Below the pieces are notes generated by a model. The model ran no database searches, had not been told where the DNA came from, and saw only the letters and a program-made list of their open reading frames with translations. This document shows, piece after piece, positions 16,351 through 22,700 of a stretch of DNA of 32,017 nt. Origin of the DNA: Gammaproteobacteria bacterium (GTDB lineage Bacteria; Pseudomonadota; Gammaproteobacteria; Steroidobacterales; PWYM01); contig PWZL01000044.1 of assembly GCA_003567475.1 (NCBI GenBank), forward strand, positions 1 through 32,017, read 5' to 3'. Each line of letters begins with the position of its first letter. Position 1 is the first letter of the stretch. The translations under genes and the position numbers were made by a program.

Positions 16351-17634
16351 TCAGAGCCGCACGAGTTCCACGCGACGATTGGCCTGGCGGCCCTCGGCGG
16401 TGGCGTTATCGGCCACCGGCGAATCCTCGCCACGACCGCTGAACTCCAGGCGATCGGCGGCTATCCCGTAGCCTGTGACGAGATACGCCATGACTGCCTG
16501 GGCGCGTTGCTCACTGAGTCGCAGGTTGGCCTGTGGATCGCCGACGCTGTCGGTGTGGCCCTCGATCCTCAGCCTGAGACCTGGATTCTGCTCCAGGGTC
16601 CAGCCGATTTCGGTCAGCGTGCCGGTGGACTCCGGTCGGATCGCCGCGCTGCCGGTGTCGAAGTAAATCCCCTGGGTCGACACCCTGCCGTCGGCCATCA
16701 GGCGATCGTAGAGTTCCAGTCCACCAGCAGCGATCCTGAGGTTGCCGATGTAGCTCGGCTGTTCACTGCGCCCGCCGAGGACGAAAGTGAGGAAGTCGTG
16801 ACGTTCGAGCTGCATGTTCGGGATGTTGGCGACGCGCTCCTCCTCAACGTACATGGTCGCGTAGTTGCCGTCGACGGCGATGCGGACGGGCGTGAGCCGC
16901 TCCCGATAGTCAGTGCGTGCCCGGGTGCTCTCGATCGGGCCCTGTACTCCGGCCTCTGTCCGGCCCAGCGCGAAGAAGGCACCCGGGTAGAACCGCCAGC
17001 TGCCGGGGCGCTCGACTTCAGTGGTGAACACGCCGATACGGGAACTCGTGGTTCCTCCAGACACATAGGCGTCGAACTCGATGGTGAAACGTTCGGGCAG
17101 CGGCTCGCCCAACGCGACACGGAATACACTGGCCGTGTCCGTGGATTGCAGCAATCGCCGGCCCTCCCAATCGACCACGTCCATCATGCCGCCGAGAAAT
17201 TCCAGCCGCCGGGGGAACCGTCCGATACGCTCGGCCGAGAAATCCTCGTAGAACAGAATACGGTCACCAGGAACGAAGTCGTAGTTGGCCCAAACGCCCT
17301 CACCCGGCGTCGCAGGGGGGCTCTGGCCGTCCTGGCGGGGTTCATTCACTTCCACCAGCTCGCCCTCCGAGTCCTGGAGGATCACGGGGCGTCCTTCGCT
17401 GCGTGCGTCGTCGATGCAGTTCTGGTCCGTGACGGCACACACCACCCCGTTTTCGACGCGGTCGAGGGCCGCTTCTACCGAAGCCGAGAGGCGCCGTTCG
17501 GCACGCCGTTCCACCGAGCGCTCCGCGCGGTCTAGCGCCCGTTCGAAGATCGATTGGGCCTGGGCGAGGCTCGCTGAGCCCATGGCTGTCACGCTCACGA
17601 GCGTCGCGGCGACGAGGAGTCTGGAGCCGGTCAT
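16351..17634 (-). CDS. OmpA-family protein with N-terminal jelly-roll-like domain
   Basis: The 427-residue product starts with a signal peptide ending ASLAQA, then a short arginine/glutamate-rich helix (ALDRAERSVERRAERR), a cysteine pair (VCAVTDQNC) and a proline-rich linker. Residues about 100-300 are beta-rich, with FYEDFS at the beginning and YIGNLRIAAGG at the end, like laminin-G/concanavalin-type sandwiches. The last 120 residues form an OmpA-C peptidoglycan-binding domain: IYFDTGSAAIRPES, RIEGHTDSVGDPQANLRLSEQRAQAV and ANRRVELVRL. The protein is probably periplasmic or outer-membrane attached and anchored to the cell wall. ATG 17634 is preceded by AGGGGAA. There is no OmpA beta-barrel, so it is not classical OmpA. 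Its ligand is unknown. Confidence 0.85.
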   Translation of the reverse strand: MTGSRLLVAATLVSVTAMGSASLAQAQSIFERALDRAERSVERRAERRLSASVEAALDRVENGVVCAVTDQNCIDDARSEGRPVILQDSEGELVEVNEPRQDGQSPPATPGEGVWANYDFVPGDRILFYEDFSAERIGRFPRRLEFLGGMMDVVDWEGRRLLQSTDTASVFRVALGEPLPERFTIEFDAYVSGGTTSSRIGVFTTEVERPGSWRFYPGAFFALGRTEAGVQGPIESTRARTDYRERLTPVRIAVDGNYATMYVEEERVANIPNMQLERHDFLTFVLGGRSEQPSYIGNLRIAAGGLELYDRLMADGRVSTQGIYFDTGSAAIRPESTGTLTEIGWTLEQNPGLRLRIEGHTDSVGDPQANLRLSEQRAQAVMAYLVTGYGIAADRLEFSGRGEDSPVADNATAEGRQANRRVELVRL

Positions 17635-17716
17635 GGCATTCCCCTGGGGTGGCGGTGTCAGGAGGTTCCCGAGGCTAACCCAGGGCGCCGCATCACGACA
17701 AGGCGCTGCCCCGGCA

Positions 17717-17736
17717 GTGCCGGCGGTTTCCGGCAC
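17717..17736 (-). terminator. Hairpin after the COG0523 gene
   Basis: GTGCCGG and CCGGCAC form perfect 7-base arms with a 6-base loop, 10 bases beyond the stop of the COG0523 gene. No T tract follows on the minus strand, so termination efficiency is uncertain, but it sits where the zinc-related operon should end. Confidence 0.45.
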
Positions 17737-17746
17737 CCGGTCCGGG

Positions 17747-18964
17747 TCAGGACGCCAGGGCCTCGCCGGTCCAGTCGGGGAAGGGGTCCGCCAGACGGCG
17801 CCAGGCGGCCGGGCCGCCGGCGAGCTCGGCATCGGTGAGCAGGCAGGTATCGAGCATGGCGGTCAGCTGCGCCTCGTCCATGCCGATGCCGATCAGCACC
17901 AGCTCCTGGCGCCGGTCGCCCCAGGGGTGTTCGAAGCGATCGAGCAGCGGCCCTGGCGTGGCCTCATCGTCCGGCCAGTGCTCGCGCGGCGTCGCTGCCC
18001 ACCAGTAGCCGGCCGGGCCGTGACGGCAGGCGCCGCCCGCCTGCGACCAGCTGCCGGCCAGGTCGTTGCGCGAGGCGAGCCAGAAGAAGCCCTTGGAGCG
18101 CACCACGCCCGGCCATTCACGGCTGATCAGGGCGTGGAAACGGCCAGGATGGAAGGGCCGCCGTGCCCGGTAGACGAAGCTTGCGATGCCGTATTCCTCG
18201 GTCTCCGGGATATGCTCGCCGGCGAGTTCACGGACCCAGCCCGGCGAGGCCTGGGCGCGCTCGAAATCGAAGCGCCCGGTATCGAGCACCTCAGCGAGGG
18301 CCACCTGGCCGAAGTGCGCCGGCACGATCCGCGCACCGGGGTTCAGGGTGGCGAGCAGCGACATCAGCCGCTCGGCATCCGCGGGGCTCACCAGGTCGAG
18401 CTTGTTGACGACGATCACGTCGCAGAATTCCACCTGGTCGATCAGCAGGTCGACTACCGTGCGGTCGTCCTCCTCGCCAAGCGATTCACCGCGGTCGGCG
18501 AGGAAATCGGCGGTGGCGTAGTCACGCAGGAAATTCAGTGCGTCGACCACGGTCACCATGGTGTCCAGCCGTGCGACGTCACCGAGACTGATGCCGTGTT
18601 CATCGGCGAAGGTGAACGTCTGGGCGACCGGCAGCGGTTCGGAGATGCCGGTGGACTCGATCAGCAGGTAGTCGAAGCGGCCTTCGCGGGCCAGCCCCGC
18701 GACTGCCCGCAGCAGGTCTTCACGCAGCGTGCAGCAGATGCAGCCGTTCGACATCTCCACCAGCCGTTCCTCGGTTCGCGAGAGGTTCGCATCGCCCTCG
18801 CGCACCAGCGCAGCATCGATGTTGACCTCGCTCATGTCGTTGACGATCACGGCGACGCGGCGGCCTTCGCGGTTGTTCAGTACGTGGTTGAGCAGGGTGG
18901 TCTTGCCGGCACCCAGGAAGCCGGACAGCACAGTGACGGGCAGGCGGATGGGTGTCGTGGACAT
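17747..18964 (-). CDS. COG0523 (CobW-like) GTPase, zinc metallochaperone type
   Basis: This 405-residue protein is a G3E-family GTPase of the COG0523 group. Motifs in order: Walker A GAGKTT at residues 18-23, the metal-binding GCICC with C75-x-C77-C78, the IESTGISEP switch region, and NKLD for guanine recognition. The C-terminal CobW_C domain contains GFFWLASR and, near the end, [10 protein letters not shown] and [12 protein letters not shown]0523 proteins deliver metals to client enzymes; zinc-linked members are induced under zinc shortage through Zur. ATG 18964 has GGAG 9 bases upstream, and the gene starts 17 bases after the DUF1826 stop, so both share the Zur-box promoter. That context points to zinc rather than cobalt or nickel. 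The client protein is unknown. Confidence 0.93.
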
Positions 18965-18981
18965 GCTCAGGGGCTCCAGGG

Positions 18982-19644
18982 TCAGTCCCGCCACACGGCA
19001 TCGAGGCTGAACAGCAGCCGCGGCGAGGGGTCATGAGGTGATCGGTGGATGACGCCGCCGCCCGAATTACCGGGAAACGCCTCGCCCTTGAGCAGGGCGA
19101 TCGCGCCAGCGGGGATCACCCGCAGGGCGGCTGGATCACGGATCAGTCCTGAGGTCTCGTCGGGGCGCCCGCCCGAGCCCGGCCCGAGCAGATCGCGTTC
19201 GGCCAGGGGATCGTCGAGCCACTCCGTGCCCGCGCCCGCGTAGGTGCACAGCAGCCGAAGGCCGACCCGGTCCACGTGCAGGCGCGGACACATCGGTCCG
19301 GAGCGCTGGTGCAGGCGCACGCCCAGCGCATCGGGCTCGAGGAGGCTTGCGTAGAGCTCCGCCAGCGCGCTCACGTCTTCGACGAAGGCCCGGTGGCCGG
19401 GGAGTCCGGCGTACGCCGCGAGCCAGGTCGCCCAGTCGGCGTGGTGCGCCGGCAGTACCCCGGTGAGGGCGATGGGCCGTGCGCATGCGGCGTCGGCAAA
19501 CGCCTGCACGTCAGCGGACAGCGCCCGCGGCAGGAGGCAGAGATTGACGTCGGGTTCATAAATGAGCGCCAGGTCGGCGATCGTGTCGACCTGGCGGCTG
19601 GCAGGCGCGGGGGGGTCGCCGAAGCGGTCAGGATGGGCAGCCAT
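18982..19644 (-). CDS. DUF1826 protein, candidate Fe(II)/2-oxoglutarate oxygenase
   Basis: The 220-residue protein matches the DUF1826 family, which recurs next to COG0523 GTPases. The conserved core reads [25 protein letters not shown], later [12 protein letters not shown] and [19 protein letters not shown] note H123-x-D125, then H200 and R209: the order, spacing and surroundings resemble the HxD...H...R iron and 2-oxoglutarate site of double-stranded beta-helix dioxygenases. That reading is my inference; the family has no function that I know. There is no signal peptide, so it is cytoplasmic. It is the first gene after the Zur-type operator and is followed 17 bases later by the metallochaperone gene. 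ATG 19644 is the start that fits the family length. Confidence 0.88.
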
Positions 19645-19673
19645 GGGGGTTCCGGAGTCGGACGGTACGTATC

Positions 19674-19686
19674 GTTATACTATAAC
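19674..19686 (-). promoter_or_regulatory. Zur-type operator
   Basis: GTTATACTATAAC is a perfect 6-1-6 palindrome and equals the core of the gammaproteobacterial Zur box (GTTATAnTATAAC). It lies 30 bases upstream of the DUF1826 start and covers the -10 of the predicted promoter, so zinc-loaded Zur should block transcription. The A/T bases flanking the core in the longer consensus are only partly kept. Confidence 0.85.
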
Positions 19687-19706
19687 TTATCGAGCTGCCG
19701 CGTCAC
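19679..19706 (-). promoter_or_regulatory. Promoter of the DUF1826-COG0523 operon
   Basis: Read on the minus strand, GTGACG (4 of 6 to the -35) is followed after 16 bases by TATAGT (5 of 6 to the -10, at 19679-19684). The -10 is inside the Zur-type palindrome. Confidence 0.55.
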
Positions 19707-19729
19707 CCGCGCCACCCGCCGGGCCATGC

Positions 19730-22700
19730 TCAGCGCACCGGGCTGGTCTCCGGTTGACCCACCAGCATGCGGGCCAGCCAGTCGCTGGCACCCCGGACGA
19801 TCACGAACAGGCAAGGCGCGAGAAACAGTGTCAGCAGGGTGGAAACCGCCAGTCCGCCGACCACCGCGACGGCCAGCGGGCGCATCAGTTCAGCGCCCGA
19901 GCCCATGCCGACAGCCAGTGGCAGCATGCCGCCGATGGTGGTCATCACCGTCATCAGGATCGGGCGCAGGCGGATCCGGCCAGCCTCGACCACCGCGTCG
20001 ATCAGCGCCGCGCCGCGGCGCAGGCCCCGTTCGATGTACTCGACCAGCAGAATCGCGTTGTTGACCACGATGCCGATCAGCAGGATCAGCCCGAGCTGAG
20101 CGGGCGCGCTGACGGCCGTGCCGGTGGACCAGAGCGCCAGGGCCACCCCGATCAGCGCAAAGGGCGCGGTCAGCATGATCACCAGCGGGTTGCTCAGTCG
20201 TTCGTACTGCACCACCAGCACGGCGAACACCAGGAAGGCGGCCAGCAGCACCACCTGCAGGGTTTCGCGACGGCTCTCTTCTATCGCCTCGGCCTGGCCG
20301 CCGATGATCACAGAGATGTCGTCTCGCGTCGGGGAGTCGGTCAGACGCGCCTGCAGCTCCGTGATGATGCTGTCGACGTCTGCAACCGCGGTGTTGAAAC
20401 TGCCGGTGACCCGCTGTACGCGGACCTGGTTCTGGCGCTGGATACGCGCCGGACCTTCTTCGATCTCCAGTCGTGCGACATCGCCAAGTCGTACCATGCC
20501 GACCTCGCCACTGGCGACGATCACGTCGTAGAGCAGGTCCGGGTTGTCCAGGCGCTCGCGCGGCAGGCGTACCCGCAGGTTGTAGTCGAACTGCCCGGTG
20601 GAGAAACGCGTGGGCAGGGCGCCGGTCACCGCATCGCGCAGTGCCGAGCCCACCTGCTCGACGCTGACCCCGAGCGCGGCGGCACGCTCGCGGTCGACAT
20701 GGATGCCGATCTGCGGGTTGCGGTCAGCGCCAGCGACATCGACATTCTCCAGGCCGGGAATATCCTCGATCAGGCGCACGATGCGCCGGGCTTCCTGCTC
20801 CATCAGGTCGAGATCATCACCGATGAGCAGCAGGTCGAGATCCTCACCGGCGACGCTGAAATTCAGCCCCCGGATGCGCGGTGGTGCGACGCCGATGCGG
20901 GCACCCGGGATGTCGAGGGCCGCGAGCCGTTGCCGGGCCTCGACCACCCAGCGGCCTGCCGGCCAGTCCGGACGCTCGGCCGCCGGTGTCAGCCGGAGCT
21001 CCATGATCACCAGGCCCGAGCGTTCGGTGACCACCCCTCCGAACAGTGCCCCGCCTGCGATGGTGAACACGTTATCCAGATGCGGCAGCTCGCGCAGCGC
21101 AGCCTCGACCTGGCGGGCCGCCAGGTCGGTCTGCTCCGGGGTTGACCCCTGGGGCAGCCGCATGAAGATGCGCACCTCGGCGTTGTCGAGTTGCGGCATG
21201 AACTCGGTGCCCAGGCTGTTGAACAGGCTGACCGAGGCGGCCAGCGCGGCCAGCGCGGCGACGATCACCAGCCAGCGCAACCTGATCGCACCCCGCAGCA
21301 GCCAGGCATAGCCGTCTGCGAGCGCGAGCATGCCGCGATCGATGCTTCGGAAGAAGCGCGTCTGGGCGAAGCCCGAGCGGATTTTCAGCCGTGAGAACTG
21401 CGCCGCCAGCATCGGCACCAGCGTTAGCGCCACGGCGAGCGACGCCACCACTGCAAAGGAGATGGTGATGATCAGTTCGCGGAACAGCAGCGCTGCGAAG
21501 CCGAGAACCAGCAGAAAGGGGACGACCGCGGCCAGGTTGGTCAGCGTACCGGCAACGATGGCCGAGGCGACCTCGTCGGCGCCGTCACCGGCCGCCTGGC
21601 GGGGGGGTTTGCCGAGACGGTCCTGGTGACGCGAGATGTTCTCCAGCATGACGATGGCGTTGTCGAGCAGCAGCCCCACGCCGAGCGCGAGCCCGCCAAG
21701 ACTCATGACGTTGAGCGTCAGCCCACCAAAGCCCATCAGTGCGAAGGTGGCGATGATCGCGATCGGGATCGACAGACCGATGATCAGCCCCTTGCGGAAA
21801 CTGCCCAGGAAGGCCAGGACGATCAGCAGGGCCAGCAGTCCGCCGAGGAGGGCTGCCTGCGCCACCGCCTGCACCGAACCGCGTACGAAGAACGACTCAT
21901 CGCGGGTGCTCTGCCAGTTGATGTCGGCCGGAATGAACCCCGAGGCGGCGAGCGAGTCCAGGCGGGCATTGATCGCGTCCACCACCTCGACGGTGTTGGC
22001 GTCCGGCTGCTTGAACACGGAGAGCTGCGTGGCGGGGACGCCGTCGAGGCGCACGAACACCCGCTGCTCCTGAAAGCCGTCCCGGACCTCGGCGAGATCG
22101 CCGAGGCGCACGCTGCCCCCGCCCGGCAGGGCGATGAGCACCTGCTCCACATCTGCTGCGGAGGTGAACCGACCGTCGGTGCGAGCGAGGACGTCGAAGC
22201 CCGGTGCGGTGACGCTGCCCGCGCCGATATTGCGGTTTTCACGGGCAATCCGGTCGGCCACCTCGCGGAGTGAGAGCCCATAGCTCGCCAGGCGCTGCGG
22301 GTCGAGGATCACCTCCATCTCGCGAATCTGACCGCCCACGCTCTCGATGGACGAGACGCCCGGGATGGACTGCAGCTGGGGGGCGAGGACATTGTCGACC
22401 CAGTCGCGCACTTCTCTTGGCGCGCGCGCGCTGGAGGAGAATCCGCCCTGGAGCACGGCCGAGCTGCCGGGGTCCCACTTGCGCAGCCGCGGCGGATCGA
22501 CATCGGGCGGCAATTGCGCGCGGGCGCGCTCCAGCAGGCGCGATGCATCCTGCAGGGCGGTATCCAGGTCGACACCGTAGTTGAAGACAAGGTCGAGCTC
22601 AGCGCGACCCTCGCGGGCCTCACCGGTCATCAGTACGAGGTTTTCGGTCGAGGCGAGCTGGCGTTCCAGTACGCGCGTGACCTGCTCCTCCACCACGGTC

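Follow-up and report, generated by a model that had tools for sequence, protein, structure and literature searches.

The window, by which we mean the whole stretch of 32,017 nucleotides analysed here, carries on its minus strand a two-gene operon behind a single operator and a predicted promoter. The features are as follows, in minus-strand order.

19679-19706, minus strand: predicted sigma-70 promoter, GTGACG-16-TATAGT, with 9/12 consensus matches (0.2 expected in shuffles)
19674-19686: Zur-type operator core GTTATACTATAAC, a perfect 13-base dyad that overlaps the -10
18982-19644, minus strand: DUF1826 protein, 220 aa, PF08856 at 161.5 bits (gathering score 22)
17747-18964, minus strand: ZigA-type COG0523 GTPase, 405 aa, NF038288 (ZigA) at 678.1 bits (cut-off 600), with a P-loop and GCICC

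By the curated NCBIfam model, the GTPase is ZigA. Its translation contains the P-loop GFLGAGKTT and the metal motif GCICC, which is the CxCC site that a first-pass annotation of this DNA had read there. While the family is assigned directly, the action of the protein as a zinc-binding GTPase metallochaperone is suggested by analogy with A. baumannii ZigA, for which binding of zinc and GTP is cited as established in PMC12208494. The gap between the two genes is 17 bases, as first described, with DUF1826 ending at 18982 and the ATG of the COG0523 gene at 18964. On the same strand, an OmpA-like gene (16351-17637) begins about 110 bases past zigA, and it is kept there in the congener loci L022 and L072.

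The operator and its probable place in the Zur regulon

The core GTTATACTATAAC is a perfect 6-1-6 inverted repeat, with the next base pair breaking the dyad (C versus T), and it agrees with the gammaproteobacterial Zur core at 12/12 specified bases. The first-pass annotation had placed a perfect 13-base palindrome on the predicted -10, and this is where we find it: the -10 hexamer of the predicted minus-strand promoter (19684-19679) lies inside the repeat. The palindrome also precedes DUF1826 as described, at a spacing of 29 bases from the ATG at 19644 and not the 30 originally given. We detect only one sigma-70-like promoter across 17500-19900, and a promoter prediction such as GTGACG-16-TATAGT is by itself no proof of function. 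The operator core is a rare sequence. Matches with at most one mismatch number 1 in the window versus 0 in 100 dinucleotide shuffles, and exact cores number 2 in the whole genome (3.06 Mb) versus roughly 0.004 expected from its base composition (68% GC).

The reading of this site as a Zur operator had been made to hinge on a zur gene in the same genome, and a Zur-like gene is found there on contig C8. It is one of three Fur-family genes in the genome; the best PDB matches of its product are 7dh7 (126 bits) and E. coli Zur (4mtd, 81 bits), with Fur and PerR below 45 bits, and its top NCBIfam model is Zur at 112 bits, which is under the equivalog cut-off of that model (167). Additional candidate sites come from pattern searches with mismatches. 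A one-mismatch Zur box stands about 60 bases ahead of the start of the C8 zur gene and about 44 bases ahead of a divergent ABC ATPase gene adjoining a permease gene. A second exact core is found about 52 bases ahead of the gene for a TonB receptor whose best model is ZnuD, and a two-mismatch box, accepted solely for the identity of its gene, about 57 bases ahead of another COG0523 gene. The site in the window had been expected to rank with the other Zur sites of its genome, and it stands on a par with the best of these. Across the genome, pattern matches at 2-3 mismatches are about as many as in a reversed-pattern control; a site before a TolC-like gene on contig C11 was dropped as a Zur box because the control is equally rich at that level.

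Two further observations concern the same genome. The box on C8 (C8:1401-1415, or L003:1321-1335) separates zur from the divergent ABC ATPase gene, which is LolD/FtsE-like and stands beside the permease gene, an arrangement reminiscent of PA4063-PA4066, a zinc-regulated cluster in P. aeruginosa (PMC4542158). The one ZnuA homologue of the genome, on the short contig C96 (L088), has no Zur box; this contig has 51% GC compared with about 68% elsewhere, and with such a deviation the ZnuA homologue may be foreign or misbinned.

Now we consider how the operator behaves in relatives. The closest are gammaproteobacterial metagenome genomes, with a DUF1826 that is 79% identical. Where the operon is kept the palindrome is retained as well, as the first reading implied: the block GTTATAGTATAACGATACG is exact in two congeners, with diverged flanks on both sides, and a third congener has a degenerate box (9/12). 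DUF1826 is absent from one 87%-complete congener. Between the window and loci L021 and L022, DUF1826 is 79% identical versus 92-94% for ZigA and 91-97% for the upstream RND gene, so that DUF1826 is evolving faster than the genes around it.

The association extends well beyond the genus. We surveyed 59 DUF1826 loci, a set that takes in the window itself, five Aquitalea loci and duplicates (L021/L071 and L022/L072 are apparently the same genomes), with per-locus shuffles that preserve base composition only. A box of at least 10/12 is present at the DUF1826 start in 22/59, and 38/59 have a same-strand adjacent ZigA-type gene. A Zur box at DUF1826, an adjacent ZigA gene or both are present in 49/59, leaving 10/59 with neither. 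The order of genes at loci with an adjacent ZigA gene is ZigA-first in 20 and DUF1826-first in 13, and several of the ZigA-first operons carry the box at the ZigA end. Boxes occur at DUF1826 loci across Gamma- and Betaproteobacteria. Locus L045 has a tandem pair of DUF1826 genes and then a ZigA-type gene; an exact Zur core precedes the first DUF1826 gene of the pair. Plasmid copies of DUF1826 in Alphaproteobacteria and Campylobacterota adjoin AztA and metal ABC genes, AztD, zigA, pyrC or 6-pyruvoyl-tetrahydropterin synthase. The first-pass annotation had argued from the lack of a nearby zinc transporter to a specific client enzyme; this argument is weak, since elsewhere DUF1826 does adjoin zinc ABC transporters.

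Taken together, the rarity of the core in the genome, the partner targets, the zur-like gene and the conservation in congeners support the original assignment of the operator to the Zur type. It is very improbable that GTTATACTATAAC is instead an AT-rich -10 that arose by chance or a site bound by some other regulator. Such a reading can draw on the overlap with a -10-like hexamer and on the fact that Zur binding is predicted from sequence, but it has to contend with the scarcity of the core, the identities of the other boxed genes and the conservation of the site across genus and class. We conclude that Zur almost certainly switches the operon on under zinc scarcity, judging by sequence and comparative evidence from which we infer repression itself.

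DUF1826 as a predicted Fe(II)/2-oxoglutarate oxygenase

What might the first gene of the operon do? The AlphaFold model of the window DUF1826 has a pLDDT of 87 and a pTM of 0.83. In a Foldseek search with this model, virtually all of the best 50 matches are Fe/2OG oxygenases, with E-values from 1.5e-5 to 2e-4 and TM-scores of just about 0.35-0.50. With VIA-align, the same model reaches Z 12.0 to a Trichoplax PHD, 11.6 to human PHD2 and 11.2 to the P. putida P4H; models that have no clear match typically reach a best Z of 7-8, according to the tool's own note. A separate AlphaFold model of a DUF1826 protein from the alphaproteobacterium Novispirillum, 35% identical (pLDDT 87, pTM 0.86), reaches Z 10.3 to the P. 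putida P4H. The predicted models of two divergent DUF1826 proteins fit the double-stranded beta-helix of 2OG oxygenases above all other folds, in what is a match of predicted models to solved folds.

Conservation within the family picks out the residues that such an enzyme would need. In an alignment of 41 members, D125 and C119 are each present in 41/41, and H123, H200 and R209 are each present in 40/41, the single member that lacks H200 being a truncated frame. The full list of nearly invariant positions is C119, H123xD125, R130, K186-G187, H200-R-S-P, R209 and D215. R209 stands nine residues past H200, where the spacing criterion for the 2OG-binding basic residue is about 9-13, and is predicted to have that role; R383 of PHD2 is the arginine at the equivalent spacing after the distal His. 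The HxD...H metal motif itself consists of H313, D315 and H374 in PHD2 and of H124, D126 and H183 in PPHD (PMC6235002). At locus L057, Asn replaces the first triad His of the DUF1826 protein (FNVD), yet the gene retains a Zur-type box (10/12); this protein may be a naturally occurring inactive form.

At the level of sequence the likeness is faint. An hhalign comparison of DUF1826 with members of PF13640 (2OG-FeII_Oxy_3) is weak (P 0.036), with the HxD in register; DUF1826 matches no Pfam 2OG family, and at E 10 it finds only DUF1826 and one chance match. A search of PDB sequences with the DUF1826 profile gives no meaningful match, and among open-licence PMC papers we found no published statement of DUF1826/PF08856 as an oxygenase. 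On the strength of the modelled fold and the retained motif, the most probable identity of DUF1826 is that of a mononuclear Fe(II)/2OG-dependent oxygenase with a predicted prolyl-hydroxylase-like fold.

Other roles for this protein have to be weighed. It may have the oxygenase fold and yet serve as a zinc-binding accessory protein or metallochaperone, in which C119, H123, D125 and H200 hold zinc that is exchanged with ZigA. C119 is invariant (41/41), lies four residues before H123 and is not required by the PHD/P4H motif, and it keeps a zinc-binding role in play. The gene is, moreover, nearly always zinc-regulated or beside ZigA, AztD or zinc transporters, and the literature's own guess is a Zn-sparing paralog or Zn-chaperone (PMC11761036). 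Nevertheless, the H, D and H and the Arg that follows are all retained as in active 2OG oxygenases, and this Arg would be superfluous for a pure zinc binder, so we regard the zinc-carrying role as unlikely. We are equally doubtful that DUF1826 is the client of ZigA, with the GTPase loading or guarding the metal of the oxygenase. There is a precedent in Nha3, a COG0523 protein thought to serve an iron nitrile hydratase (PMC2770081), and the tight linkage to ZigA in either order, as counted above, would suit it; against this, the surrounding 1.5-3 kb examined lacks a ZigA gene at many of the DUF1826 loci with a box, and other clients or partners of ZigA (HutH, SltB) have been proposed in Acinetobacter. 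To the proposal of a succinylglutamate-desuccinylase-like zinc enzyme, made from domain annotation in a Francisella paper (PMC5786701), we give almost no credence: no Pfam family except DUF1826 matches above chance, and the fold matches, which are to 2OG oxygenases, had already told against it.

Returning to the oxygenase reading, we can outline how the operon may work. With ample zinc, Zn-loaded Zur would occupy the operator, covering the -10, and block transcription, a step suggested by the sequence and backed by the P. aeruginosa data described below. When zinc runs short, Zur would be released, and DUF1826 and ZigA would be co-produced from a single transcript. In DUF1826, the predicted iron ligands are H123, D125 and H200, with 2-oxoglutarate held by R209, and the enzyme would probably hydroxylate its target using iron, 2OG and oxygen. 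Most likely, such an iron-dependent hydroxylation would adjust some protein or metabolite to a shortage of zinc, perhaps on a target shared with ZigA. ZigA may serve DUF1826, act on a common target or simply be co-regulated with it. For the account as a whole, that of a Zur-repressed zinc-starvation operon encoding a ZigA metallochaperone and a predicted Fe(II)/2OG oxygenase, we put the probability at roughly 0.7. The broader idea is one that we favour with more reserve: that DUF1826, widespread in Zur regulons and beside ZigA, is an unrecognised family of Fe(II)/2OG oxygenases, through which zinc starvation would turn on a hydroxylation that depends on iron and oxygen, perhaps of a protein on which ZigA acts as well.

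Comparison with known systems

Zur control of a DUF1826-ZigA operon is already published, and the operon in the window adds a further example of it. What is new is the prediction of an iron/2-oxoglutarate oxygenase fold for DUF1826, a family that has had no function. The predicted active site makes a conserved component of the bacterial response to zinc starvation directly testable, and this component is strongly induced in P. aeruginosa too.

With the solved structures of P. putida PPHD (4j25, 4iw3) and PHD2/EGLN1, DUF1826 shares the predicted fold (Z 11.2 and 11.6) and the HxD...H motif. Identity to them is about 8-13% and the profile match is not significant; DUF1826 also differs in its invariant Cys before the HxD and in being regulated by zinc.

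As for the operon, the closest known system is PA5534-PA5535-PA5536 (dksA2) of P. aeruginosa, which shares the adjacent DUF1826 and zigA genes and control from a Zur site, and which is induced by zinc depletion in that organism. In a znuA mutant, PA5534 (DUF1826) is up 57.5-fold and PA5535 (zigA) 46.1-fold (PMC4542158). Proteomics finds both proteins more abundant in zinc-depleted cells (PMC11761036); the pair also rises with N-acetylcysteine (PMC9431628), and in cells starved of zinc cobalt represses it (PMC13083405). In the window, by comparison, DUF1826 comes first with the box directly before it, and none of dksA2, folE2, cam and pyrC2 adjoins the operon. In Francisella novicida, the DUF1826 gene FTN_1758 falls within the Zur RNA-Seq set of one study (PMC5786701); unlike in the window, the report places it away from the COG0523 gene, whose location is elsewhere with zupT.

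Haas et al. 2009 had drawn DUF1826 in Zur-regulated COG0523 clusters (Fig. 4 legend, PMC2770081), in which Zur box, COG0523 and DUF1826 occur together as they do here; the lineage of the window is a different one, and that paper gives DUF1826 no function. Finally, the GTPase of the window has the CxCC and P-loop in common with A. baumannii ZigA (NF038288, 678 bits versus 600), but here its gene comes second, after DUF1826, in the operon.
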